A stretch of DNA of 64,000 nt, from NCBI GenBank assembly GCA_021773395.1, contig JAJFKB010000010.1, positions 124,001 to 188,000 on the forward strand. The letters are read 5' to 3'. Each line of letters starts with the position of its first letter. Positions within the stretch are counted from its first letter, which is position 1. A model generated the notes under the pieces. The model ran no database searches and was not told the origin of the DNA. It worked only from the letters and a program-made list of their open reading frames with translations. This document shows positions 1,660 to 15,033 of this stretch, one piece after another. The DNA is from Gammaproteobacteria bacterium. Lineage in GTDB: Bacteria; Pseudomonadota; Gammaproteobacteria; Pseudomonadales; IMCC2047. The translations under genes were made by a program, and so were the position numbers.

Positions 1660-2598
1660 ATGATTAATCGTCTGGCACGTATCGATCTCAACCTTCTAAT
1701 CTCGCTGCAGGTATTGTTGGAGGAGCGCAATGTTACGCGCGCCGCCGCACGCCTCTTTGTTACGCAACCTGCTATGAGTAAAGCCCTGCAAAGATTGCGG
1801 AATATGTTTGATGATGATCTTTTCACGCGCACCGCTCACGGCTTAATACCCACCCCCAAAGCAGAGCAACTGCAAGGCCCCCTTAATGATGTGCTTGATC
1901 AAATGGAAGCGGCAATATTTACCCCGGACTTTAATCCTGCAGATGCCCAGGGGCTGATTCATATCTCTGTGCCCGAAACAGTAGCGATTGGCGCGATACC
2001 GAGATTGTTAAAGAGAATTCATGACAAGGCTCCCAATGTCAGACTACAAACACGGAATATACTTGATGACCATATGGATCTTCTGGCGTCAGGCGCGTTG
2101 GACTTTTCCATTTTTATCAAACAGGAACACCACGATGACTTTAAGTTCTTCCCGTTAGGTATCAATACGGCAATGTGCTGGATGCGCGCAGGGCATCCAC
2201 TGGCGGAAAAGGAGGTTCTGGATCGCGACGATATCATCAGCTTTCCGCATGTAGCTCTTTACCTACCCAACATCACCGACCGAGATCTGCTCCGCGTGGA
2301 ACGTACCTTTCAGGAGGCCGGGATCACGCGCCAAACTATTCTCGAAACGACGCAGCTGCTCACCGCTCTTGAGGTACTCACACTAAGCGACTCTCTGATG
2401 CTAGGTCCCAAGTACCTGGCGGAATTCAGGTTGACCAAGGGGCACTTTATTTCCAGGCCGTTCAAAATTTCTGAACTCAACGAGTTGCGCCTGTTTTTAT
2501 GTCTGATCCAGCATCGAAGAACGTTTAACTCTCCGCTTCATCGCTGGATCCAGGAGCAGTTATGTGAAATTTTTGAGGCGGCAGCTTCCAGTTTATAA
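1660..2598 (+). CDS. LysR-family transcriptional regulator
   Basis: The 312-residue protein has the normal length of a LysR regulator. Residues 8-65 form the winged helix-turn-helix (RIDLNLLISLQVLLEERNVT, then AARLFVTQPAMSKALQRLR); the remainder is a substrate-binding-like effector domain. The opening DLNLL and the TQPAMSKAL recognition helix resemble the NodD/LeuO/SyrM branch. Start ATG 1660 is preferred because it gives the standard LysR N-terminus. It is divergent from the 27-residue peptide gene and shares with it a 126-base intergenic region holding a 10-bp inverted repeat, so the small gene is the likely local target. The effector is unknown. A strong terminator follows. Confidence 0.9.
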   Translation: MINRLARIDLNLLISLQVLLEERNVTRAAARLFVTQPAMSKALQRLRNMFDDDLFTRTAHGLIPTPKAEQLQGPLNDVLDQMEAAIFTPDFNPADAQGLIHISVPETVAIGAIPRLLKRIHDKAPNVRLQTRNILDDHMDLLASGALDFSIFIKQEHHDDFKFFPLGINTAMCWMRAGHPLAEKEVLDRDDIISFPHVALYLPNITDRDLLRVERTFQEAGITRQTILETTQLLTALEVLTLSDSLMLGPKYLAEFRLTKGHFISRPFKISELNELRLFLCLIQHRRTFNSPLHRWIQEQLCEIFEAAASSL

Positions 2599-2682: not shown

Positions 2683-2722
2683 TAAGCCAGCTGATGATCT
2701 AATCAAGCTGGCTTATTTTTTT
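2683..2722 (+). terminator. Intrinsic terminator after the LysR gene
   Basis: TAAGCCAGCT (2683-2692) pairs with AGCTGGCTTA (2706-2715), followed by seven T residues. It overlaps the last codons of the convergent kinase gene, which ends at 2703. Confidence 0.85.
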
Positions 2723-5700
2723 GGAACGAGGCAAATGAAACCAGGTTATCGGAAGACATTTTACCTGCAAGAAATTGTTTTTCAAAATCCTCTGCCGGCA
2801 TCGGCTTACCTAGAAAATAACCCTGAATATAATTACACCCTTCTTTTTTGAGGTATGCCTTTTGCTCCTCCGTCTCAACACCCTCAGCTATCACCTTGAC
2901 TCCCAGGCTGTGCGCCAGCGTAATAATAGTCGTTACGATATCGGCATCCACTTTATCAACGGTAATGTCTGAAACAAACGCACGATCAATTTTAAGCATA
3001 TCAATCGGGAAGCGCTTCAAATAGTTTAACGATGAGTAGCCTGTTCCGAAATCATCGACCGCCAACTGTACGCCCATCGTTTTCAAGCGCTCCAAGGTTA
3101 CAATCACCTCTTCAGCATTAGCCATGATTGTACTTTCAGTAATTTCCAGCTCCAAATTCTGGCTCGGCAACCCGGTTTCAATCAATGTTGCGGCCACCTG
3201 TTCAACAATAGAACCATTTTCCAGCTGGCGCGACGCCAGGTTGACCGCCATCCTTATAGGCGGACAGCCTTTGTCCAGCCAAGATTTTAGTTGCGCGCAG
3301 GCGGTTTTCATAACCCACTCACCCAGCTCTAGAATTTGCCCGGTTTCTTCGGCAAGGCCTATAAACTCAAGCGGGTTCATCATACCTCTACTCGGGTGCT
3401 GCCACCTGACCAGCGCCTCCATGCCAATTAGCTCACCTGTTGCCAAATCTTCCTGCGGCTGGTAATAAACCATCATCTCGCCGCGCTCAATAGCGCCACG
3501 CAAATCACTCTCTATTCCCAGTCGACGTGCAACATCAGCCTCCATTTTCTGCTCATAGAACTCGTAACAATCGCCACGCTCCTTGGCACGATACATTGCA
3601 ATATCGGCGTTCTTTAACAAAGTACCGATATCTACACCATCATTCGGGTACATGGAAATACCAATACTAGTGCTGACATGCATCTCCTTGCCAAGGAAAA
3701 CGAAAGGCCTGGACAAGGTTTCATGAATCTTAGTGACAATGTTTTTAACTACGTTATAGGACTTCACGCGATCCAGGATAATGGTGAATTCATCGCCACC
3801 AAATCTCGAAACCACATCACCTTGACGCACACAGCCCTGCAAACGTTCAGCCACGACTTTTACTAGCAAATCACCCGCATCATGACCAAATGTATCATTA
3901 ATCAGCTTAAATCTGTCCAAATCCAGAAACAGTACAGCTACCATCGATTCAGGATCGCTTTCAGCCAAGACCTGACTCAGCTTTTCAGTAAACAGAGTAC
4001 GGTTCGGCAACCCTGTTAAGGTGTCATTATAGGCAAGTCGATGGATACGCTGCTCCGCCTGACTGGCCTGTAACACACGTGAAATACGTTTCCGCAAAAC
4101 CGCAAAATTGACCGGTTTGGAAATATAATCTGTTGCTCCCGCTGCGAAAGCCCGTCCAATCGAGGTTTCATCATTAAGCGCGGTAATAATGAGCACGGGA
4201 AGGTGCTTGCCCCCCGGTAATGCCTGTATTTCAGAGCAGGCCTTAAAGCCATCCATTTCAGGCATAATGGCATCCATCAACACCAAGTCCGGCATAAATC
4301 GTTCGCAGTACATAAGCGCCTGCTCGCCGTTCTGTACTTCATCTACCCGGTAGCCGTCATCCTCAAGTACCTTGCGCATGGCAAAACGCATTCCCCTATC
4401 ATCATCAACAACCAAAATACGCTGATTTTGCAGGGGTTGATTATCGTTTATCCCCGCCTCATCTTCAGAATCTTTATGCCGTTCTGGCAAGCTACTTTTT
4501 AACTGCTCTGCCTGATATTCCAGCGCCTGCTGCAACAACCCACACTCGGAAATCGCTTGTGCAACGAGGCCTTCAATATCCTGCAAATCACCTGCTCGAC
4601 CACAGTCTTCAATCTGCTGACAGACGTCTACCAGCCTGTTTGCCCCGAAATTCGCGGCACCTCCCTTTATGCTATGGGCTATATCGGCAACGGCACTAGC
4701 GTCCTTCACAGAAGTCGCATCCTTTAAGGAACGAATATAGGAAGGCATATCATCGATAAATACATTAATGAGTGTACCTAATGCGACACCCACCTGCTCA
4801 CCCAGCGCTTTGAACACGCCCTGATCCAAAATACCTTCAGATCCAGGAACTGCTGCTGTCTCTTCGTGCTCTCCTGCAACTCGATATTCTGTTACAGGCA
4901 TCCATTTCATCAGCATGCTTTTCAAAACATCAATTTTTAACGGTTTTGCCAAGTAATCATTCATACCAACAGCAAGACACTTGTCACTTTCGCCCTGCTG
5001 CACATTCGCTGTCATAGCGACAATATTGACATTGGACCCCTCGGTTTCAAGGCGTCTAATTTGCGCTGTAGCCTCGTAACCATCCATTTCCGGCATGTGA
5101 CAATCCATAAGCACCAGATCAAAATGCTTGCGGACAATCAGTTTCAGCGCCTCTTTGCCGTTATTTGCCAGATCAATTTTACAGCCCAGGCGCTCCAACA
5201 TCCCCAGCGCCACCTGCTGATTAGCACGATTGTCTTCAACAACCAACACACGCCGACCGCCAAAAGAAGCGACCCGGTTATCCGTTTTCCCCTCTTGCTC
5301 ATGACTGATAACAAGTTGCTCACCCCCGCTGCCCAGCAGATTAACCATCATCCCAGACAGCTCGCGTTTTTTAACCGGTTTTGACAGAAAACCCGCTACG
5401 TTCAGGCTTTTTGTCACTTCGTAAGTCGGGTTAGCACGATTTACCATCATGATAACCTTTAGACTAACCAGTGAGGGATCGTTGACTATCAGACGAACAA
5501 GGTCACTCCCTTTCATGCCAGGCATGACTTCATCAAGCAACACCAACTGATAAGGATTGCCACTCGCAACCGCCAACCTAAGCTTCTCCAATGCCAGAGA
5601 ACCGTCGCTGGCAGTATCATAGTTAACCGAGACTGTATCCAAAATTTGCCCCAGATAACGACGGTTTAGCTGGCTATCATCAACCAATAGCACCTGCAAA

Positions 5701-7250
5701 TTATCCGATTGCAAGGCCGGCAAACTGGGAACAACTTTTTGGTCCGAACCACTAACAACCAACTCAAACCAAAATGAGCTGCCTTTACCTAATTGACTGT
5801 TTACACCTATCTTTCCACCCATCAGATTGACCAGCTGACGCGATATAGCCAGCCCCAATCCCGTACCACCATATTTTCGGGTGATTGAGCCATCTGCCTG
5901 TGAAAAAGCTTCAAAAATCCGATCCTGAGCTTCCTGTGACATACCAATGCCGGTATCAAAAACCTCAAAATGCAAACTGACTTGGTATCCGTCAATTTGT
6001 TTTAATTTGACCTCTATACCCACTTCGCCGCGCTCGGTAAACTTCAACGCATTTCCCACAAGATTAATCAGTACTTGTCGAAGTCGGCCACTGTCCCCCA
6101 GAATTTTTTCGGGAATTTCTGGATCAATAATATAAGCCAGATCAATATCTTTTTGTTGCGCCTGAGTACTCAGCAGCAGGACAATTTCTTCCAACAAATC
6201 GGGCAAATCAAATTCAATATGTTCGAGGGACAATTTCCCCGAATCAATTTTTGAAAAATCGAGAATATTATCGATGAGCGATAGAAGAGATTCTGCTGAA
6301 CCGCTGGCTATTTCAATATATTCCGACTGTTTTTCGTTGAGCCCCATATCGTTCAGAAGCTCCAGCATTCCCAGCACTCCGTTGAGTGGAGTACGCAGTT
6401 CGTGACTCACATTTGCCGCAAACTCCCCTTTTACCCGAGCAGCTTCGAGTGCCAGGTCACGGGTTGCGCGCAGATCCTCCTCTCTGGCGTGAAGCACATC
6501 CATCATGTCATTAAATGCATTTTGTATTTCTATAACTTCGCGTGTGCCCTGAATATCAGATCTCACCACTTTGGCACTCTTAGCCCCAAATCGAGCTTGC
6601 TGCATAGTGGTCGCAAGGCTGCTAATTGGTTTGGTGACGCGACTGGTAATCGCTAACAAAATCGCCAGCAATACTAGAGCTAAAGAAAAAGAAACGGCCA
6701 AATTGTATTTAAAGATTTCCCGCTGGTTTTTGCGCAAAGAATCTTTACCCATAAATAGCCGCACATATCCAACCAATTCGGGTTCGAGCTCTTCTGTAAG
6801 GAACGGTGAATTTTCTTCTTTCTGAGACCCCGTATGCACAGGTGCTGCAAAATGCCATGCAACACTGGATTCCGACACAAGCTGCAGTTGTTCTGGCCAA
6901 CGCAAATCAGAGTTGGGCTCGCCAGCATTACTGCCCGTTGTATAAAGCGGTTTTTGCTGATCGTCATAGATGCCCACGGCCAGTACATCGGGAAAAGCAA
7001 GCATCGCATCACCAACATACTTGGCATCCACATCACTATGATAGAGCAGCGCAACACGGCTTCTGTCCGATAGCGTCTCCGCCAGGTTCATCCCTTCAAG
7101 CGTCACCCGCTCTTCCGCAGATTGGCTTAGCAAATAAGACACCACAATGGACGATACCAATGCCAACAAAACAATACCAATACTGAATATTGCCGCAAGT
7201 TGCTGCCTGAAACCCAGCTTATTGATTGCAAATTTCCGTAAAAATTTCAT
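2703..7250 (-). CDS. Hybrid sensor histidine kinase with REC-REC-Hpt-REC-GGDEF-EAL output
   Basis: The 1515-residue inner-membrane protein combines a complete phosphorelay with both cyclic-di-GMP domains. Order: membrane helix (~20-43), periplasmic sensor (~44-182), second helix (~183-203), HAMP (~204-258), HisKA with phospho-acceptor His283 (SHELRTPLNG), HATPase (~395-500, with DTGIGM and GGTGLGLAIS), receiver 1 (Asp573), receiver 2 (Asp716), Hpt (His859), receiver 3 (Asp993), GGDEF (RFGGDEF, 1149-1155) and EAL (EAL 1278-1280; ELEITES and DDFGTGYSSL present). All key residues look intact, so both cyclase and phosphodiesterase could be active; receiver 1 has a less typical active site. The start lies 2 bases after the binding-protein gene, so the two are co-translated. 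The likely role is to turn a periplasmic ligand signal, delivered by that binding protein, into a cyclic-di-GMP change. Confidence 0.95.
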   Translation of the reverse strand: MKFLRKFAINKLGFRQQLAAIFSIGIVLLALVSSIVVSYLLSQSAEERVTLEGMNLAETLSDRSRVALLYHSDVDAKYVGDAMLAFPDVLAVGIYDDQQKPLYTTGSNAGEPNSDLRWPEQLQLVSESSVAWHFAAPVHTGSQKEENSPFLTEELEPELVGYVRLFMGKDSLRKNQREIFKYNLAVSFSLALVLLAILLAITSRVTKPISSLATTMQQARFGAKSAKVVRSDIQGTREVIEIQNAFNDMMDVLHAREEDLRATRDLALEAARVKGEFAANVSHELRTPLNGVLGMLELLNDMGLNEKQSEYIEIASGSAESLLSLIDNILDFSKIDSGKLSLEHIEFDLPDLLEEIVLLLSTQAQQKDIDLAYIIDPEIPEKILGDSGRLRQVLINLVGNALKFTERGEVGIEVKLKQIDGYQVSLHFEVFDTGIGMSQEAQDRIFEAFSQADGSITRKYGGTGLGLAISRQLVNLMGGKIGVNSQLGKGSSFWFELVVSGSDQKVVPSLPALQSDNLQVLLVDDSQLNRRYLGQILDTVSVNYDTASDGSLALEKLRLAVASGNPYQLVLLDEVMPGMKGSDLVRLIVNDPSLVSLKVIMMVNRANPTYEVTKSLNVAGFLSKPVKKRELSGMMVNLLGSGGEQLVISHEQEGKTDNRVASFGGRRVLVVEDNRANQQVALGMLERLGCKIDLANNGKEALKLIVRKHFDLVLMDCHMPEMDGYEATAQIRRLETEGSNVNIVAMTANVQQGESDKCLAVGMNDYLAKPLKIDVLKSMLMKWMPVTEYRVAGEHEETAAVPGSEGILDQGVFKALGEQVGVALGTLINVFIDDMPSYIRSLKDATSVKDASAVADIAHSIKGGAANFGANRLVDVCQQIEDCGRAGDLQDIEGLVAQAISECGLLQQALEYQAEQLKSSLPERHKDSEDEAGINDNQPLQNQRILVVDDDRGMRFAMRKVLEDDGYRVDEVQNGEQALMYCERFMPDLVLMDAIMPEMDGFKACSEIQALPGGKHLPVLIITALNDETSIGRAFAAGATDYISKPVNFAVLRKRISRVLQASQAEQRIHRLAYNDTLTGLPNRTLFTEKLSQVLAESDPESMVAVLFLDLDRFKLINDTFGHDAGDLLVKVVAERLQGCVRQGDVVSRFGGDEFTIILDRVKSYNVVKNIVTKIHETLSRPFVFLGKEMHVSTSIGISMYPNDGVDIGTLLKNADIAMYRAKERGDCYEFYEQKMEADVARRLGIESDLRGAIERGEMMVYYQPQEDLATGELIGMEALVRWQHPSRGMMNPLEFIGLAEETGQILELGEWVMKTACAQLKSWLDKGCPPIRMAVNLASRQLENGSIVEQVAATLIETGLPSQNLELEITESTIMANAEEVIVTLERLKTMGVQLAVDDFGTGYSSLNYLKRFPIDMLKIDRAFVSDITVDKVDADIVTTIITLAHSLGVKVIAEGVETEEQKAYLKKEGCNYIQGYFLGKPMPAEDFEKQFLAGKMSSDNLVSFASFQKNKPA

Positions 7251-7252
7251 CT

Positions 7253-8203
7253 TTAACGATTCGGAAAAATCAAGTCGAAGTCGCGTAACTGCGATCGATC
7301 GATGTTTAAGTTCAAGTGCTCAGCTGTTCGAACGTTTACAGCAATAAGCAAATCTTTTAACGGTTCAGGCGTACGGCTATCACCCTCTTTTATTTGTCGC
7401 GCCTTCAAAGCCAGGCTTTTCCCCATGTTGAAGTTATCGGGAAATAATGAAAACAAAGCGCCACGTTTAACATGTGATGGGTTGCTGGAAAAAACGACCG
7501 TATGACTGCTCCAGGCTTTATTGAGAATTGTCAGTAGAAGGCTCCGCTCATCCATAGTGGGATCTCCTTGCAGAAGCCAAATTGCATCACCACCATTGAG
7601 CTGATCCCCCAGCTCCTGCTGATATAAACCAGCGGCTTCTCGGACATCCTTTGCCGGTAGAGTTTTTAATTCGAGCCCCAATTCTTTGGCCGAAGATTTT
7701 GCCAACTCAACCAGCCAACCATTTGTTTCGGGGTGATACACCACGATCACACGCCTTACCTTCGGTGCTAATTGCTTAAGTTTACTGAGAAGTCTACTGG
7801 GAGCAGGTGCCAAAGAAATACCTACTAAACCCGCGTTGATGTTTTCATCCGAAAGGATCGCTGCACCCGTTAAGGTTACAAACTCACTCTGCACTTCTTC
7901 AGCAACTGATTTGCCTCTATTTCCGAGCAGGATAACCGTTCCGGGATCTTGCTTCCTTAACCACTGCTTCAGATTGGCCACACTTTCATCCTTTTTAAGC
8001 GCGTAAGATTTAACCTTTCCGTCTGCCTCTCGTTTAATTCCTTCTAGCACATCCTTGAATATGCTGCTGTACGGCTCCCTAACATCCGGATAGAGCACCG
8101 CAATTGCGGCACCCTTCGCAAACGCTCCTAAGACACTGCATGAAAGGGCAGTTGCTACCGCAAAAACTACCCAAGCATAACCGTTTTTCTTTTTCTTTAA
8201 CAC
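7253..8203 (-). CDS. Periplasmic ABC-type substrate-binding protein (PF04392-like), probable sensor partner
   Basis: The 316-residue protein starts with a lysine-rich n-region and a hydrophobic signal segment (~10-30), so it is exported. The body has the two-lobed organisation of the ABC_sub_bind family (IAVLYPDVREPYSSIFKDVL at the start, a second lobe from RRVIVVYHPET). No ABC permease or ATPase gene is nearby. Instead the gene sits between a TonB receptor (66 bases upstream) and the hybrid kinase (2 bases downstream). The most economical reading is a ligand-capture protein that presents its ligand to the periplasmic domain of the kinase, not a transport subunit. The ligand is unknown. The family call comes from motif memory. 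Confidence 0.8.
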   Translation of the reverse strand: MLKKKKNGYAWVVFAVATALSCSVLGAFAKGAAIAVLYPDVREPYSSIFKDVLEGIKREADGKVKSYALKKDESVANLKQWLRKQDPGTVILLGNRGKSVAEEVQSEFVTLTGAAILSDENINAGLVGISLAPAPSRLLSKLKQLAPKVRRVIVVYHPETNGWLVELAKSSAKELGLELKTLPAKDVREAAGLYQQELGDQLNGGDAIWLLQGDPTMDERSLLLTILNKAWSSHTVVFSSNPSHVKRGALFSLFPDNFNMGKSLALKARQIKEGDSRTPEPLKDLLIAVNVRTAEHLNLNIDRSQLRDFDLIFPNR

Positions 8204-8268
8204 TTAAGCCTCTTCCCTGATAAAGGCGAACTCACAAAATTTGAGTCGCGTATCAATCAAAAACAGCC

Positions 8269-10344
8269 CTACCAGGACTTCCTTATTTCAGCAAAAACGC
8301 TCCGCCCGGCAAGAGGCAAATCATTGGGTATCAGCCCTGGTGCCAGCGATGGTTCAAAGGCATCTTCATCAGTCAGATTACGAACCGAAATTGTCAGATC
8401 CACACCTCGCAGCAACTCCTTGCCAATAAGCGTCAAATCCAAGATGGTGTAGTCGTCAACTCCTGGCCGTAGATCACCAATAGCTCGCTCGCGATCCATG
8501 ACGTGATTTAGCTGGGCGTTTAAACTCCAGCCCGGCATTAACTCATAATCTGCCCGCAGATAAAGTTGCTGCTGCGGCGCATTCGGTGCGTCTCCATCCG
8601 TATCCTCATCCTCCGAGTCCTGCAGCGCATAATTGCCGCGCACAGTGAACTCATCGCTCACCGTCCACTCAAACTCCCATTCCAGACCCTGACCGGTTTG
8701 ATCACCGGTGTTCCGAGCTACTGGTGTAAAACGAATAATATCCTGCATTTCATAGTAAAAAATATTCAAACCCATGCGCAAGCTGCTGGAAGGGGTATAG
8801 TCAAAAGCCAGCTCATAAGTGTTGATAATCTCTGGATCCAGATTATCGTTACCAATCGCTATGGGGTTGTTAATATTGAATTGCTCAGCAAATGACGGCG
8901 CACGGAATGCTCTTCCATAAAGCAATTTAGTGGTTAAATTATTCGCTGTATCCCAGACCAGTGCGAAACGCGGATTTACCGTATCACCAAAGTCTGAGTA
9001 ATGGTCATAGCGCACACCGGCTGTTAAAGACCAGTCACGTATCAATTTCCATTCGTCCTGGATAAAAAGATAGGATACTTCGCGAACTTCTTCGCGGTTG
9101 AATGGCGCTATATCAGAGACATCAATCAACCCTCCCAGCGGAACTGGTAGCGCTCCAGCAGGTGTAATAGCGGTCATGAAATTCTTGGTTTCTTCTATGC
9201 GGTACTGATCCTGATAGTGATAGCCCGCTCCCAGTCTTATGTCATGCCCGTCAAAGCCAGTATAGAAGCCTGATGTATCAAACCTATAATGCCTTTCGTA
9301 GACATCAGGCTTACCAATGACCCCATCAGGAAAGCCACCTGGAAATATCGTATTAAATGCGCCTGGAGGGAATAGCACTAAATCTGTTTCAATTGACACA
9401 TCAAAGTAGCTCGCTTTGACCTCAATTTCCCAGTCTTCCAGATTTTTGTTCTGATAAGTTATATCAAAATTTAACCTGTCACTTTCACCCTCCCCTATTG
9501 GGTCAAGTGCTTGGCTGGCACCTGCACCGGATTGCACATCTCTACGCGCTTGATACCCTGCTCTAAGCCTCCAAATTCCGTTGGAAACATCCAACCTGAA
9601 GTCTAATGATTTTCTTCCTAAATTTATTCCCTCCGGAGCCAAAGATGCAGTCGTGAAAAATGCTTGATCTAATATCGATTGAATATCAGAGTTAACTTCT
9701 TCACTCTGCCCATTCGTGTCCAAAACCTCTAATGACAAAGATAATTCCCAATCATCAATAGCGCCTCCATATTGAGCCCACGCTCGAACTGTATTGAAGG
9801 TGCTCGCCATAACACCCATCTCAGCCCCATCAATTTCGCTAGAGTTCTTTGTAACTATATTTATAGTACCTGCAAAAGCATCTGCACCATATACGGCCGA
9901 CCCAGGTCCACGAATTACTTCAATGCGAGAGATTGCTTCGACTGGCATCCCAGCCCAGACCTCTCCTCTATTCCCAAAGAGGAGACTCGTAATAGGGCTT
10001 CCATTAATTAAGATTAATACTTGAGGGTTAAATTCAGAAAAAATACCACGGACAACAAAAATAGGCTCGTAACCACCTGCTTTTTTAGAAACATGCAGTC
10101 CAGGAACAAGCTCTAAAGCTTCAGTTATATCTTTTGCCCCAATAGCGCGGATATCACTTGAAGTTATTACACTAGCTACAGCCGGGGCTTTTGCGATGGG
10201 CTGCTTTCGACCAGTAGCAATACTGATAAAGTCTTCGTCACCATAGGAAAGTGACAGCTCATCTTCTTCGTCAATCCCTGCATAAGAAAAATTGCTTACC
10301 AAAAAGACTGAAATCACCATTAAGGAGAATTTCTTAAACATCAT
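8269..10344 (-). CDS. TonB-dependent outer membrane receptor
   Basis: The 691-residue protein has a signal peptide (~1-22), a plug domain (~45-170; PGLHVSKKAGGYEPIFVVRG and IEVIRGPGSAVYGADAFAGT are diagnostic) and a C-terminal 22-strand-type barrel ending in an aromatic residue (RKSW). A segment before the plug (EDELSLSYGDEDFISIATGR) may serve as a TonB box region. There is no N-terminal signalling domain of the FecA type. It is the first gene of the sensing trio and lies 80 bases downstream of the citrate-synthase-like pair, on the same strand, so it may belong to their operon or have a promoter in the 80-base gap. Substrate unknown; the neighbours suggest a small carboxylate or chelate rather than a sugar, but that is inference. 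Confidence 0.92.
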   Translation of the reverse strand: MMFKKFSLMVISVFLVSNFSYAGIDEEDELSLSYGDEDFISIATGRKQPIAKAPAVASVITSSDIRAIGAKDITEALELVPGLHVSKKAGGYEPIFVVRGIFSEFNPQVLILINGSPITSLLFGNRGEVWAGMPVEAISRIEVIRGPGSAVYGADAFAGTINIVTKNSSEIDGAEMGVMASTFNTVRAWAQYGGAIDDWELSLSLEVLDTNGQSEEVNSDIQSILDQAFFTTASLAPEGINLGRKSLDFRLDVSNGIWRLRAGYQARRDVQSGAGASQALDPIGEGESDRLNFDITYQNKNLEDWEIEVKASYFDVSIETDLVLFPPGAFNTIFPGGFPDGVIGKPDVYERHYRFDTSGFYTGFDGHDIRLGAGYHYQDQYRIEETKNFMTAITPAGALPVPLGGLIDVSDIAPFNREEVREVSYLFIQDEWKLIRDWSLTAGVRYDHYSDFGDTVNPRFALVWDTANNLTTKLLYGRAFRAPSFAEQFNINNPIAIGNDNLDPEIINTYELAFDYTPSSSLRMGLNIFYYEMQDIIRFTPVARNTGDQTGQGLEWEFEWTVSDEFTVRGNYALQDSEDEDTDGDAPNAPQQQLYLRADYELMPGWSLNAQLNHVMDRERAIGDLRPGVDDYTILDLTLIGKELLRGVDLTISVRNLTDEDAFEPSLAPGLIPNDLPLAGRSVFAEIRKSW

Positions 10345-10424
10345 ACTACCTCATTAGACATGGGTTTATACCATCCAGATTGTGACCATTTCCCATTTAT
10401 AGCTATATAGTCTAGACGGTTTTT

Positions 10425-11264
10425 CTATTTTTCCCATTTTCTTAGAGGTTTTCCTTCGTAATGTATCCGCTCGCAACTCAAGGGGAAAAAGGTTCCAACT
10501 GGTTTATGGCGGGCATCAGAATAACAAGCAATCATGCCTGCTGAATATATAACTGATGCTGCATAATAAAACTCCTCAGCAGAAAGCCCCTGATCGGCGC
10601 ACAGTGCCGCTGTTAATCCACCTATATTTAAAACGGCTCTGTATCTCTTTTTTGAAAGAATTTTTTCTATATCTAGCGCTAGTTTGACATGTGTACCATT
10701 ATCAAAATCTAACGATTTTGCCAACCGCATTGCATGTGGAACTCTTTCATCGTTGTTTATTATTGGGCGCCCAAAACCCGTGGGGATTTGTCGAGTAGTT
10801 TTTATGCTGCCAATAACAAAACTCTGCAAATCTCCACCCTCATCAACAAATTGCTTGGCATTCTTAATAAACTCGACGGCTGCATAATTTGCTTGCCCAC
10901 CATAATACTTACCCTCAGACACAGCTATAGCGCTGGACATTCCTATCATCGCCGTAGCTCTTGCTGTTCCGCAAAGAGCCGCTACTCGATTATTCCAAAT
11001 CCTCGGTTCGGGATAGCTAGTACAAATTACCCATAGCCTGCTAAAAAGTTCTATTTGCGATTTTGAAAAAAATTTTCCAGTAATACTAAAATACCAAACC
11101 TCTACCCAAGATTTATCGAATAAATCAGTAAAAACATCCAAGCCTCTAAAAACAACACGGTCGCCTGCAAACCAAGCTCCCATCTCAGTAACCCAGTTAT
11201 CCTCGCTGTCGATTAAGGGCTGAGGACCATCAGGAACATTTTTATTTACTCTATTTTTATTCAT
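10425..11264 (-). CDS. Divergent citrate-synthase-like protein, subunit 2
   Basis: At 279 residues it has the length of the short citrate synthase/citryl-CoA lyase type, not of full citrate synthase (about 430). The superfamily landmarks are present but altered. GKYYGGQAN (118-126) stands where citrate synthases have a His-Gly-Gly-Ala-Asn motif, with Tyr for the catalytic His. GFGRPI (163-168) replaces the GFGH motif, with Arg for His. An Asp-Ala-Arg (250-252) sits where the catalytic Asp is expected. Its start overlaps the upstream paralogue's end by four bases (ATGA), so the two are translationally coupled and probably form a heteromer. The DNA is visibly richer in A and T than its neighbours. 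Catalysis by the normal citrate synthase mechanism is unlikely; the reaction is unknown. Confidence 0.75.
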   Translation of the reverse strand: MNKNRVNKNVPDGPQPLIDSEDNWVTEMGAWFAGDRVVFRGLDVFTDLFDKSWVEVWYFSITGKFFSKSQIELFSRLWVICTSYPEPRIWNNRVAALCGTARATAMIGMSSAIAVSEGKYYGGQANYAAVEFIKNAKQFVDEGGDLQSFVIGSIKTTRQIPTGFGRPIINNDERVPHAMRLAKSLDFDNGTHVKLALDIEKILSKKRYRAVLNIGGLTAALCADQGLSAEEFYYAASVIYSAGMIACYSDARHKPVGTFFPLSCERIHYEGKPLRKWEK

Positions 11265-12073
11265 TTACGTCCTGGATCATTTGTTAATTTAAGGCCATCT
11301 CCAAAAAAAGGGTATTTTTTTAATCCATTGTTTCGTTGTTCTAAAGCGTGAGCTCCAGCTCCAGGTAGCCTTAACATAAGATATAGCATTTCAGACTGCT
11401 CTTCATTAAAACCCAAATCTATAAAAGCAGCAGCAGCTACACTTACCATATTAATTGGGTAGTTAGCGGTTTCCTCCAAATTTAGCCTGTGTTTTTTTAA
11501 CCACCGCAGAGAGTCTGCACCATTATGTCCCGCCAAATATTCGAGTACTTGCTTTATTGGTGTCGAAACCGAACTCCCATAGGGGTCAAAACCAGGAATA
11601 TGTTCTATTTCCGGCCATACTTTTACTTCCTCATCCTTTTGGTAGTCTTTTAGGCATGAATGCCAAGCCACAATATCTACGCCGCATTCTTTCCATATTT
11701 TAACTGCCAAATAAAGCTCTCTAGCTCCACAATACTCTCCGGATCCCGGCCCAAGAGCTGCCATTAGACAGGAAGCTGAAAGAGACCCCCCTACCCCACC
11801 ATTCATAGCCGCCCGCACACTCAGATCACGAGGACCGGGATTAGCTATAGCCACCGCCAAGCCCTCAAGCAACTTGGCCTGGCTTTTTGAAGGAGGTTCG
11901 AGCTTAAACAGCAGATAAAGGTATTCTATCCAGCTTATTTTGCCTAACAGATCACCATAGACATCAAACCCTGAGCAATAACAGGCGGCAGCGGCGAAGG
12001 GGTTGTCAGGTTCTGGAATTTCTTGCCAAATTTTAGAGTGTATAACTTCTTTTTTCTTTTCCTGATCCGACAT
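11261..12073 (-). CDS. Divergent citrate-synthase-like protein, subunit 1
   Basis: This 270-residue protein is a second short citrate-synthase superfamily member. The fold signature is recognisable in the helical N-terminal part (FDVYGDLLGKISWIEYLYLL), the motif region GSGEYCGARE (110-119) and PGFDPYG (160-166), and near the C-terminus PGAGAHALEQ (237-246), which resembles the end of citryl-CoA lyases. The histidines expected at the first two motifs are absent (Glu-Tyr-Cys and Asp instead). The gene starts 7 bases after the TPP enzyme and overlaps the next paralogue by four bases. Two degenerate citrate-synthase halves plus a TPP enzyme form a tight three-gene operon whose product I do not know. 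Confidence 0.75.
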   Translation of the reverse strand: MSDQEKKKEVIHSKIWQEIPEPDNPFAAAACYCSGFDVYGDLLGKISWIEYLYLLFKLEPPSKSQAKLLEGLAVAIANPGPRDLSVRAAMNGGVGGSLSASCLMAALGPGSGEYCGARELYLAVKIWKECGVDIVAWHSCLKDYQKDEEVKVWPEIEHIPGFDPYGSSVSTPIKQVLEYLAGHNGADSLRWLKKHRLNLEETANYPINMVSVAAAAFIDLGFNEEQSEMLYLMLRLPGAGAHALEQRNNGLKKYPFFGDGLKLTNDPGRK

Positions 12074-12080
12074 GAGACTG

Positions 12081-13955
12081 TTAATTCATCCCTTTGATAC
12101 GGGTGGCTATTGGCGGCACTTCGTTGGGGTCAATAATGACCTCGAGTAGGGTCGGCCCTTTACGCGTACACATTACGTCTATATTTAACTCTTGCAAATC
12201 ACGTGGAGTGGAAACCTGATAGCCTGGCACTCCAAGTGATTCAGCCAACCGGGAATAATTAATCGGCGTTAATTGATGCGCGATACTTTCCGAATTGTTA
12301 AGTATTTGCCCATGCTTGACCATCCCGAGACAAGAATCTTTCATCACAAGAAAGATAATGGGCAAGCATTCCTCTAAAGCGACAGTAATTTCATTGCCAA
12401 ACATCAGGAAACTTGCGTCACCTACAATACAGACTACCGGCTCACCGGGATTCGCCAGAGCCGTTCCAATAGAGCTTCCAGGCGACCAACCCATCGAGCA
12501 AAACTCGGCGCACACCTGAAACAGGGCGTTATTGCGAGTCCTGCGCCCGTTATCGTAGCGGTGCTGGGGATTATTCCAACGTGAAACTTGGCGCCGCTGA
12601 CCGACACGCCGATCAAAGGGATTCAAATAATGAATCGCCCAAGCCAGATTATTCCCCGTATCGGCAAGAAACCGGGTGTTGACCGGAAAAATCCGCGTCA
12701 GCTGATGCATTAACCATTGAGGCTTGATAGGAATCGAGTCATCAAATATTTTTCTTGGCTCATCCAATTCAAAATGCATGACATTTTCACAGCCCTTGCC
12801 ATCGATTTTGGCTTCTTCAAGTTGCTGCTTCCTTTGACTGCCTTCTTTGCCAATCTCAGAGTCTTTCATCGGTTTCGAGGCGAGGTTATCAATCACGCGC
12901 TCGAATATCGAAGAGATCCGACCTCGCACATGCAGCTTGGCCATGGGAGAGCGCATGAGATTTGATTCCGACTCCTCAACATGAACCAGACGACTATTCA
13001 ATATTGCCGATTTATCCCACGCATTTGAAGTAAACTCACCCAGTGAAGCACCGGCCACCACAACAGTATCGACTTCAGGATCATTTAACGCATCAATAGC
13101 GCTCTGATGTCCGGCAAAACCTATCACACCCCTGAATAACGGATGATAGGGGCTGATAAAACTTTTTCCGTCTGGTGTGGCTAACAAAGGCGCATCCAGC
13201 AGACAGGCTACATCAACAATCTGGCTTGCCGCTTCACGAGCCCCAACGCCCAGTACAAAAACAGTCTTTTTTGAGGTCGACAACGTTTTACATAATTCCG
13301 CGATCGCATAATCATCCTGCAGCACAGGCTGTCTCATGATCTTGGAAATATTATAGGAGGGGCCGTGCGGAACCTGGGAATAAAATATATCTGCAGGGAT
13401 ACTCAAGTGCACCGGGCCATAGGGCGGACTTAATGCCGTCATAATTGCGGTAATCAGCTTATGTTCAAACTGCTGTACGTGACTAACCAAGGTATTGTAA
13501 CGCGTACAAAACTGATACATTCCCACCACGTTAACGCCGGTATCTCCGGATTCCTGCATGGCCTTGCGGCCAAATTTTTCCTGAGCAGTTTGCGGAGTGA
13601 TGACCAGCAGCGGCGTATTGTTTTCATAGGACGAGGCCACACCGGTAATCATATTGGTAGCGCCAGGACCGGTGGTTGAACAGCAAACGCCTAATTTTCC
13701 GGTATTACGAGCATAGGCGTCAGCCATGAATGCAGCACTGGTTTCATGACGCGCGACAACGGGGCGAGGACCACCTCTGCGCGCACTTCTGGCCAAAGCA
13801 TTATAAAGAGGCTCAATGGCACCGCCGGGAATTCCGAAGACGTATTCAACATTAAGCTGTTCTAAATAAGAGACCAGCAGGTCTCCCAACTCGACAGGCT
13901 CAGACTTCCGCTTTTCTTCGCGAAGCTCCTCCAATCCAAATACATCGGCGCTCAT
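12081..13955 (-). CDS. Thiamine-diphosphate-dependent enzyme, acetolactate-synthase-like
   Basis: The 624-residue protein has the three-domain layout of acetolactate synthase/2-hydroxyacyl-CoA lyase enzymes: Pyr domain (~25-190), central domain (~210-350) and PP domain (~410-610). The glutamate that activates the cofactor is present (RHETSAAF, Glu71). The metal-binding motif runs from GDAS (Asp513) to Asp540 in MKDSCLG, where most family members have Asn-Asn; Asp540 takes the second ligand position. A linker of about 60 polar residues (~355-410) and a basic segment (VGQRRQVSRWNNPQHRY, ~451-467) are unusual. It heads the operon with two citrate-synthase-like genes, so it is not the housekeeping acetolactate synthase. 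No small regulatory subunit gene is nearby. Probable chemistry: decarboxylation or carboligation of a 2-oxoacid, or lysis of an acyl-CoA; substrate unknown. Confidence 0.85.
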   Translation of the reverse strand: MSADVFGLEELREEKRKSEPVELGDLLVSYLEQLNVEYVFGIPGGAIEPLYNALARSARRGGPRPVVARHETSAAFMADAYARNTGKLGVCCSTTGPGATNMITGVASSYENNTPLLVITPQTAQEKFGRKAMQESGDTGVNVVGMYQFCTRYNTLVSHVQQFEHKLITAIMTALSPPYGPVHLSIPADIFYSQVPHGPSYNISKIMRQPVLQDDYAIAELCKTLSTSKKTVFVLGVGAREAASQIVDVACLLDAPLLATPDGKSFISPYHPLFRGVIGFAGHQSAIDALNDPEVDTVVVAGASLGEFTSNAWDKSAILNSRLVHVEESESNLMRSPMAKLHVRGRISSIFERVIDNLASKPMKDSEIGKEGSQRKQQLEEAKIDGKGCENVMHFELDEPRKIFDDSIPIKPQWLMHQLTRIFPVNTRFLADTGNNLAWAIHYLNPFDRRVGQRRQVSRWNNPQHRYDNGRRTRNNALFQVCAEFCSMGWSPGSSIGTALANPGEPVVCIVGDASFLMFGNEITVALEECLPIIFLVMKDSCLGMVKHGQILNNSESIAHQLTPINYSRLAESLGVPGYQVSTPRDLQELNIDVMCTRKGPTLLEVIIDPNEVPPIATRIKGMN

Positions 13956-14166
13956 TGCGCTACTCGCTGCTTAGTTATTTTTTTTCTAAGGTTGGTTATT
14001 CTACCCACAAGCCGCCTCGATTCCCTATCATTTGCGGCTATTTATATAATAAATTACTTTAACTTCGCAACCTTAATTGCTTTTTTTATTACAAATTATT
14101 GATTCGAATCTAATGCTACCACTAGACAAAGCGCCTTTATTTTTGCCTGCACTGCCCGCCAACGCT

Positions 14167-15033
14167 TTAGTGAGTCACGCCGATAGCTCCCGGCAACCTG
14201 ATGTCCATCGCTATGGGGAGATGGTCTGAGATGGAATTATGCATCACCTCCACCTTTTCGATTTCCAGGCTTGGACTCACCAGTATATGGTCATAATTAT
14301 AGATCGGGCGCCAGCTTGGATACGTGTTATAGCTGCCCTGAGCCGAGCGTAAACCAATATCGCTCAAGGGCGAAAGCTTGAGCACGCGCTCGGCCCGGCT
14401 ATTCAGATCACCCATCACAACAACGTGGCGATAATCTGCAATCAGCTCGCGGATATAGGAAAGCTGATTCCTCCTGGCCCGCTGCCCCAAAGAAAGGTGC
14501 AGCAGAACCAACACTAGCGGCTCCGCCAACGAGCCAAACTGCATGAAAATTGCTCCACGCCCGGGCAACATTCCCGGCAGCTTATGATCTTCAATCGAGT
14601 TTGGCTTTGGACGACTCAGCACACCATTACTGTGTTGTGCAAATTTACCCAGGTTCCGGTTGAGCTGCTGATACCAATAGGGAAACCCCGCCGCTTCGGC
14701 CAGATATTGAACCTGATTAATATGACCTGATCGGATACTGCCACCGTCTGCTTCCTGCAAGGCGACAATATCATAATTCGCGAGTAACCGGGCAATCCGG
14801 TCTAGATTCTGGGATCGCCCCTGATTCGGCAAGATATGCTGCCACCCGCGTGTCAGATAATGCCGATAAGAATGGCTATGTATACCCACCTGAATATTAT
14901 AACTGAGCAGCCTTAAATGGGTACGGGCTGCGCGCCAGCTGTGCTCTCCTGACGCGCTATGATCATAGGAGACAATGGTCGCAGGCTCGCAACCAGCTGT
15001 ACGTTTTAAGTTAGTTGAGAAACGCCGAAGCAT
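14167..15033 (-). CDS. Endonuclease/exonuclease/phosphatase (EEP) family protein
   Basis: The 288-residue protein contains the EEP order of motifs: LLSYNIQVGIHS (~43-54, metal-binding Asn), LQEADGGS (catalytic Glu), GDLNSRA (Asp-x-Asn) and the terminal SDHLPI (Asp-His pair). Such enzymes cut phosphodiester or phosphomonoester bonds in DNA, inositol phosphates or sphingomyelin. No signal peptide is evident, so it is probably cytoplasmic. Upstream on the same strand is dsbA; the downstream gap to the TPP enzyme gene (211 bases, AT-rich) likely carries that operon's promoter. The substrate cannot be assigned from sequence. Confidence 0.85.
   Translation of the reverse strand: MLRRFSTNLKRTAGCEPATIVSYDHSASGEHSWRAARTHLRLLSYNIQVGIHSHSYRHYLTRGWQHILPNQGRSQNLDRIARLLANYDIVALQEADGGSIRSGHINQVQYLAEAAGFPYWYQQLNRNLGKFAQHSNGVLSRPKPNSIEDHKLPGMLPGRGAIFMQFGSLAEPLVLVLLHLSLGQRARRNQLSYIRELIADYRHVVVMGDLNSRAERVLKLSPLSDIGLRSAQGSYNTYPSWRPIYNYDHILVSPSLEIEKVEVMHNSISDHLPIAMDIRLPGAIGVTH

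Follow-up and report, generated by a model that had tools for sequence, protein, structure and literature searches.

Why would a bacterium line up a thiamine diphosphate (ThDP) enzyme (here TPP), two small citrate-synthase-like proteins (CS1 and CS2), a TonB-dependent outer-membrane receptor, a periplasmic binding protein (SBP), and a hybrid sensor kinase on a single strand? The question is posed by positions 2703..13955 of a 64,000-nucleotide stretch of contig JAJFKB010000010.1 from a Gammaproteobacteria bacterium, which is referred to here as the window. The first-pass annotation described six same-strand genes with short gaps in this interval, and all six open reading frames (ORFs) are confirmed there, on the minus strand (Table 1). 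It is nearly certain that the six genes form one conserved module. The module may serve the biosynthesis and sensing of an autoinducer-like signal, a reading to which a chance slightly below even is assigned.

Recurrence of the six-gene module

Profiles of TPP, CS1, CS2, the TonB receptor, and SBP detect all five families together in 30 of the 51 loci compared (L numbers denote fetched loci, G numbers genomes). Nine loci contain every family except SBP, four contain the three enzymes only, and the remaining eight contain one to four families; for six of these eight, the contig ends inside the cluster or close to it. Seven orders of the five genes occur among the 30 complete loci when the doubled receptor of L148 is counted as one, and distinguishing the kinase from the GGDEF-EAL parts raises the number of patterns to ten. 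The receptor gene is inverted in L006, and TPP and CS2 are convergent in L120. CS1 precedes CS2, adjacent and codirectional, in all 47 loci with both genes, and a histidine kinase ORF lies directly downstream of SBP in 31 of the 31 loci that have it; in the latter tally, the four f78 kinases match at 23-25%, and Pfam was used to check one of the four. The f78 loci are outside the class of the window by kinship label, and all four have the order receptor-CS1-CS2-TPP-SBP-kinase on a single strand, with ORFs that abut or overlap and best matches 22-39% identical to proteins of the window or other modules. The first-pass annotation had named as contrary evidence that the enzyme genes never stand beside the sensor genes elsewhere; instead, the set recurs in distant genomes in shuffled order.

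The CS1 profile was searched against 294 genomes of the window's order, and 58 of them match at E 1e-3, including 20 below 1e-70 (the window among them) and 20 at 1e-15 to 1e-36; 40 of the 294 match at E <1e-14. The remaining matches, weaker than 1e-15, may be ordinary relatives. Among 398 genomes of the phylum, the CS2 profile matched 14 at 1e-8; ten of these matches, that of the window among them, are strong. In plasmids, a search with CS2 gave two weak citryl-CoA-lyase matches. The 51 loci comprise 37 strong loci of the order from outside the window's family, L086 from the same family, nine strong loci of the phylum search, the window, and three contigs of named records (L005, L006, and L010). 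Outside these counts are L155-L171, which were fetched to follow incomplete cases, and L001-L004, L085, and L087-L101, which repeat counted loci. Rows of the weak CS2 matches L151-L154 (E 1e-13 to 1e-16) and of the second TPP of G186 (L162) were dropped; in L151-L154 the other module genes are lacking, apart from CS1-like matches in L151 and L153 that are weak and coincide in place with those of CS2. Since the profiles derive in part from the 51 loci themselves, their scores are favourable. A tblastn search with the window proteins extended to 41 of the 51 loci, and there it agrees with the profile tally.

Profiles were also run on 77 control loci around other TPP enzymes, which are largely from other taxa and test TPP neighbourhoods in general rather than those of the window's order. 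None of the controls contains CS1, CS2, or SBP, and one contains a weak receptor match. Kinase cores occur in 7 of the 77 controls, compared to 28 of the 51 module loci, and GGDEF-EAL cores in 12 compared to 32. Because of these controls, the link of TPP to CS1, CS2, and SBP is considered specific, and that to kinases and cyclic di-GMP (c-di-GMP) proteins an enrichment. Among the 294 genomes, 32 have strong SBP matches (E <1e-45), 46 match the TPP profile (E up to 1e-120), and 30 have both; the overlap has a Fisher p of 5e-27, in a test that assumes independent genomes, which they are not. Two SBP genomes are missing from the TPP list: G142, and G293 with a TPP truncated where its contig stops (L113).

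Several observations weigh against a single unit for making and sensing a compound. The three enzymes stand without receptor and SBP in four loci (L142-L145), the sensor genes stand without TPP and CS in one genome, and kinase and GGDEF-EAL genes, as the controls indicate, are not special to module loci. Terminator-like sites in the window cluster are not depleted (11 compared to 11.2 in shuffles) and lend no support to a single transcript; one of them is at the end of the receptor gene (8279-8265). Furthermore, SBP is absent from the fetched stretches of L103 (cut by a contig end), L104, L107, L109, L111, L112, L121, L122, and L134, and G005 carries the enzymes and receptor on one contig (L104) and SBP and kinase on another (L168). 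The first four of these points are compatible with two separate units in company, an enzyme operon of ordinary metabolism and a generic c-di-GMP sensor cassette. Nevertheless, such an arrangement is improbable, given that the same five families persist in seven orders, that strong SBP and TPP coincide in 30 of 32 genomes, and that strong SBP matches have TPP or CS genes no more than 20 kb away in 30 of the 32, the exceptions being G005 and G142.

Fifteen further stretches were fetched for the incomplete cases. In eight cases (L156-L158, L160, L161, L166, L167, and L169), the stretch is short or breaks off within the cluster, and L159 contains TPP and a short receptor frame that stops 0.1 kb from the contig end. 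L162 and L163 contain TPP without CS, receptor, or SBP, and L165 an SBP fragment. At E 1e-30, carriers are sparse in the f78 order (4 of 78 genomes) and the f86 order (4 of 48 genomes). In G262, the start of CS1 runs on, within a single frame, into the final part of a GGDEF-EAL gene, which gives the impression that everything between them had been deleted (L115:9612-10478), and the TPP frame is still open. In L163:8581-12290, the end of a module-like TPP overlaps a convergent response-regulator gene by 4 bases, and a hybrid kinase follows that gene at the contig end.

In the window, the intergenic gaps in the order TPP-CS1-CS2-receptor-SBP-kinase are 7, -4, 80, 65, and 2 bases, so that the CS1 and CS2 ORFs overlap by 4 bases. 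Promoter-like sites show no excess over shuffles, and Rfam gives no match at gathering scores across the window and none up to E 1 at 13900-14260. The module genes look maintained, because dN/dS is mostly <0.2 in close pairs (saturated pairs yielded no value). The exceptions are in L130-L132, with 0.59 for CS2 and 0.42 for SBP, perhaps inflated by stop-to-stop frames with non-coding ends. An endonuclease/exonuclease/phosphatase-family gene is positioned 211 bases upstream of TPP on the same strand. Downstream of the cluster, a LysR gene (1660-2598, plus strand) converges on the kinase end; tblastn finds a weak relative of it only in L118 among the 41 loci compared.

Table 1 Genes of the cluster in the window, listed from the first gene
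Product	Position	Strand	Length (aa)	Remarks
TPP (ThDP) enzyme	12081..13955	-	624	acetolactate-synthase-like carboligase; first gene of a probable operon
CS1	11261..12073	-	270	citryl-CoA-lyase-like paralogue, likely partner of CS2
CS2	10425..11264	-	279	citryl-CoA-lyase-like paralogue; conserved, apparently repurposed site
TonB-dependent outer-membrane receptor	8269..10344	-	691	barrel and plug (Pfam)
Periplasmic binding protein (SBP)	7253..8203	-	316	ABC_sub_bind, PF04392
Hybrid sensor kinase	2703..7250	-	1515	HisKA-HATPase-REC-REC-Hpt-REC-GGDEF-EAL (Pfam)

The enzymes and their natural replacements

The TPP enzyme matches the Pfam TPP_enzyme domains N, M, and C, all over cut-off, and its closest relatives of known structure are BbmA (276.5 bits) and CsmA. 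It stays below the cut-off of every NCBI model among the matches listed (25 of 55 models matched), the best being acetolactate synthase TIGR00118 with 255 compared to 538 bits. Module members retain Glu71 (37/37), Asp513 (36/37), and Asp540 (35/37), namely the catalytic glutamate and parts of the GD...N/D cofactor motif. The window enzyme departs at position 514 (Ala for Gly) and 539 (Lys for Asn), where 35 of 37 members have Gly and Asn. With other TPP enzymes (77 found), it shares 23-29% identity. In a phylogenetic tree, 46 module TPPs are separated from the 77 others by one branch (one change, SH-aLRT 80); several branches are long, and the grouping is not certain.

CS1 and CS2 were described in the first-pass annotation as two citrate-synthase-like halves, a view that does not hold: their profile match to each other spans nearly the whole length (E 4e-22), and they are full-length paralogues. 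CS2 reaches 29.3 bits against Pfam Citrate_synt (PF00285; cut-off 27), and CS1 stays under with 15.4 bits. The NCBIfam PRK06224 models of citryl-CoA lyase give at best 46.6 bits for CS1 (cut-off 261) and 53.9 bits for CS2 (cut-off 193), and CS1 matches the solved structure 6hxp with E 2e-7. The genome of the window has two strong citrate-synthase matches elsewhere, and CS1 and CS2 are therefore not its sole candidates for the enzyme of the tricarboxylic acid cycle. The Caulobacter "citryl-CoA lyase" was considered as a counterpart and rejected, since it looks unrelated: in PMC3751524 and PMC11005374, it is named a citrate-lyase beta chain.

Six residues of CS2 are invariant in 47 of 47 sequences: Trp90, Asn92, Arg166, Pro167, Arg174, and Asn213. 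At the positions of the catalytic His, His, and Asp of GltA, CS2 has Tyr (45) or Phe (2), Arg (47), and Asp in 0 of 47; the alignment to the genome's own GltA has a gap near the stretch of the first His. Arg166 occupies the place of one of these His residues, and Arg174 is at the substrate-arginine position. In CS1, Arg82 is invariant in 49 of 49 sequences and is the sole invariant residue among 19 tabulated positions; CS1 varies where CS2 is fixed. Mapped through CS2, which is less sure, CS1 has no His among the 46 and 45 of 49 sequences shown at the two His positions and Asp in 0 of 49. The pair looks like a heteromer with one repurposed site.

Natural substitutions of enzymes were found in two genomes. 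The one-contig genome G181 (L155) has the order TPP, 316-aa protein, receptor, SBP, kinase, and no match in G181 is listed in the CS1 search. The 316-aa protein is a relative of ketoacyl synthase III (KAS III), with ACP_syn_III and the C-terminal domain over cut-off and 119 of 292 bits against the FabH model, and it occupies the place that CS1-CS2 hold in L102 of the same genus group. In G142 (84% complete), L164 contains an 846-aa protein followed, after 78 bases, by receptor, SBP, and kinase. The first half of this protein is a pyridoxal phosphate (PLP) acyltransferase of the BioF/Kbl family, and the second half contains a GNAT domain. Neither TPP nor CS was found in the 19.9 kb of L164, and no match in G142 is listed in the searches for CS1 and TPP. 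KAS III and the PLP BioF/Kbl acyltransferases are both acyl-thioester condensing families, which suggests that CS1-CS2 also condense acyl thioesters.

The 846-aa gene is present in tandem copies that are 86% identical (L164:4298-6838 and G142:C234:23252-25717), with the second copy upstream. A cut relative of the enzyme lies less than 2 kb from the second SBP fragment (L165), on the other strand. G225 is the sole other genome among the 294 with a close relative (E 1e-90), and module neighbours are absent from the 11.4 kb seen there.

It is possible to read CS1-CS2 as a non-catalytic CoA-binding regulator of the TPP enzyme in a module that still makes and senses a compound, since CS2 has lost all three catalytic residues of citrate synthase and the equivalent positions of CS1 are variable. 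However, complete retention of the six CS2 residues, including Arg174 and Arg166, would be unusual for a mere scaffold, and KAS III can replace the pair. A regulatory role is thus considered improbable.

Proposed uptake and sensing of a putative compound

The N-terminus of the receptor is signal-like, as read by eye. A tandem pair of TonB receptor genes is present inside the module of L148 (10413-14643). SBP scores 49.6 bits against ABC_sub_bind (cut-off 25.9), and its nearest solved relative by profile is 3lft. Neither a permease nor an ATPase was found by ORF and Pfam analysis between or next to the six window genes, and an ABC ATPase cluster, present in 7 of 41 loci, is not adjacent to the module. 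The sCache_4 domain reaches 20.7 bits in the window kinase (cut-off 22.1) and passes the cut-off in its relatives from L118 and L131, which suggests a single-cache sensor domain in the window kinase.

The signalling proteins vary among loci. In loci of the window type, kinase and GGDEF-EAL form one protein, L131 encodes a separate kinase and a receiver-PAS-GGDEF-EAL protein, and L116, L118, and L146 have a kinase-receiver without GGDEF-EAL. In L142, the enzymes adjoin a 1771-aa Ser/Thr kinase-AAA-GAF-HATPase protein, with a HisKA_3 match just under cut-off, and a LuxR-type regulator. ORFs of similar size occupy the same place in L144 and L145, a Ser/Thr kinase-AAA ORF is found in L143 together with an AMP-binding enzyme, and in L121 the gene of a methyl-accepting chemotaxis protein converges on CS2. 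Enzymes that stay constant while their signalling neighbours change are better explained by signal synthesis than by the use of a nutrient, although single cases could be chance neighbours. A 7TMR-DISM GGDEF protein (L109:176-2134) is encoded a few genes from the receptor in loci without SBP and kinase.

In the mechanism proposed for the window, the ThDP enzyme would decarboxylate a 2-keto acid and ligate the acyl anion to a second carbonyl substrate. CS1-CS2 would bind an acyl-CoA and perform a Claisen or acyl-transfer step at a site unlike that of citrate synthase. The product, an alpha-hydroxyketone-like or alpha-hydroxy-beta-keto compound, would leave the cell, be pumped into the periplasm by the TonB receptor, and be held there by SBP. 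The sensor kinase would read the compound, and its phosphorelay would set c-di-GMP through GGDEF and EAL. We infer the substrates, the product, its export, the identity of the ligand, and the direction of the c-di-GMP change. The acyloin-type compound suggested in the first-pass annotation is consistent with the acetohydroxyacid-synthase-like TPP enzyme and with both enzyme swaps, and the compound itself is our conjecture. As to whether the enzymes make or break such a carboxylate or acyloin, making is somewhat better supported, with no broadly recurring degradation pathway or permease among 41 loci.

Nutrient uptake coupled to catabolism is a less likely explanation that nonetheless deserves consideration: the receptor would import a scarce compound, SBP and kinase would sense it, and TPP, CS1, and CS2 would cleave it (an acyloin or keto acid, with a lyase step by the CS pair). 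TonB receptors are commonly nutrient importers, enzymes of the TPP and citryl-CoA-lyase folds can operate in either direction, and the patchy spread, such as 4 of 78 genomes in one order, is in keeping with an accessory trait for nutrient use. Among 41 loci, an SDR cluster recurs in six and an acyl-CoA-dehydrogenase-like cluster in four (one member of each checked by Pfam), and an ABC ATPase with a TOBE domain is encoded some kilobases away in seven, six of which are tier-2 order loci (here, too, Pfam confirmed one member). However, none of these clusters is broad: only seven ORF clusters reach at least 15 of the 41 loci, all of them parts of the module, and neither a degradation pathway nor a permease is among the broadly recurrent ones. 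In addition, the output of the window sensor is c-di-GMP and not a DNA-binding regulator (which L142 has), CS2 is devoid of the catalytic residues of citrate synthase, and the replacements, KAS III and the PLP acyltransferase, are of biosynthetic families.

By sequence, the nearest solved relatives of the receptor are the colicin I receptor and ferric enterobactin receptors, followed by BtuB, and alpha-hydroxycarboxylates bind iron. The module could thus produce a small metallophore, with TPP and the CS pair building a citrate-like alpha-hydroxycarboxylate chelator, the receptor re-importing the metal complex, and SBP and kinase monitoring it. This is rather unlikely, as every Fur-like match in 32 upstream regions was reached by at least 10 of 100 shuffles, and no importer, reductase, or exporter is among the broadly recurrent clusters.

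Other findings count against the autoinducer-like signal. A small acyloin would cross porins without need of a TonB receptor, and the relatives of the receptor import metal chelates or vitamin B12; the receptor suggests a larger or metal-bound ligand. No exporter is among the recurrent ORF clusters of the 41 loci. In L117 and L118, acyl-CoA-dehydrogenase-like genes stand upstream of TPP, and in L130 an aldehyde dehydrogenase is encoded near the module, which could mean catabolism. The KAS III and PLP acyltransferase swaps are from one genome each. The L164 acyltransferase matches the NCBI model of alpha-hydroxyketone autoinducer synthase weakly (79 bits compared to a cut-off of 428) and is closer to the PRK07505 and BioF models. 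Nevertheless, that the module makes and senses a compound of its own, be it the autoinducer-like signal, a metallophore, or a signal made beside a non-catalytic CS pair, is probable when the three possibilities are taken together.

Three acyl-CoA-dehydrogenase-like ORFs in a row, upstream of TPP and on its strand, are positioned at L117:8747-12404 and L118:12752-16411 (one Pfam-checked). Close to TPP-CS1-CS2 are FkbH-like (L142; weak in L144), MaoC-SDR fusion (L144 and L145), methyltransferase (L142), and GNAT and AMP-binding (L143) genes, and the neighbourhoods of L142-L145 resemble a specialised-metabolite cluster. Two proteins without Pfam match are encoded near the module in L107 (13656-18836, 1726 aa; 3675-5453, 592 aa), and the 592-aa protein recurs in four loci of one genus group.

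Comparison with known systems

It is tentatively suggested, with more doubt than the signal itself, that the module represents a hitherto undescribed class of signalling between bacterial cells. A ThDP carboligase would act with a heteromeric pseudo-citrate-synthase to produce an alpha-hydroxyketone-type signal, which a TonB receptor would actively pump in and which would be relayed through a permease-less SBP and a kinase to c-di-GMP, with synthase (KAS III, PLP acyltransferase) and output being exchangeable. No account of the module was found in the open literature, most subscription papers being outside the search. If the reading is true, part of the Proteobacteria possesses a route of signalling in which the synthase chemistry is unfamiliar and the receptor step is driven by energy. 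Since the biosynthetic genes of the putative ligand adjoin its sensor, the vague question of the ligands of TonB receptors and orphan binding proteins next to kinases becomes testable. Should the ligand turn out to be a nutrient or a metallophore, the conserved pair of pseudo-citrate-synthases, whose site is altered and yet invariant, would still indicate enzymology that has not been studied.

The window TPP shares three domains and a catalytic-type glutamate with acetohydroxyacid synthase and BbmA- and ScyA-related ThDP enzymes. The CS pair appears, by profile, to belong to the family of citryl-CoA lyase and citrate synthase, from which it differs in having two paralogues side by side and a CS2 without the His-His-Asp set.

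The CqsA-CqsS and LqsA-LqsS systems of alpha-hydroxyketone signalling and the window both place a dedicated synthase gene beside a sensor kinase, and an acyl-CoA-derived alpha-hydroxyketone is the type of product proposed here. L164 carries a PLP acyltransferase of the BioF/Kbl family, which belongs to the same superfamily as CqsA. In contrast, the window has a ThDP enzyme and a pair with, by profile, the citrate-synthase fold in place of a PLP synthase, and a TonB receptor and SBP ahead of the kinase. Pfam detects no PLP enzyme among the six window genes, and the module is therefore not of the CqsA/LqsA kind, although it resembles an autoinducer circuit. With LuxP-LuxQ and NspS-MbaA, it shares a permease-less periplasmic binding protein linked to a hybrid kinase or GGDEF-EAL protein; it differs in that its binding protein is of family PF04392 and that the receptor and the enzymes are encoded in the same cluster.

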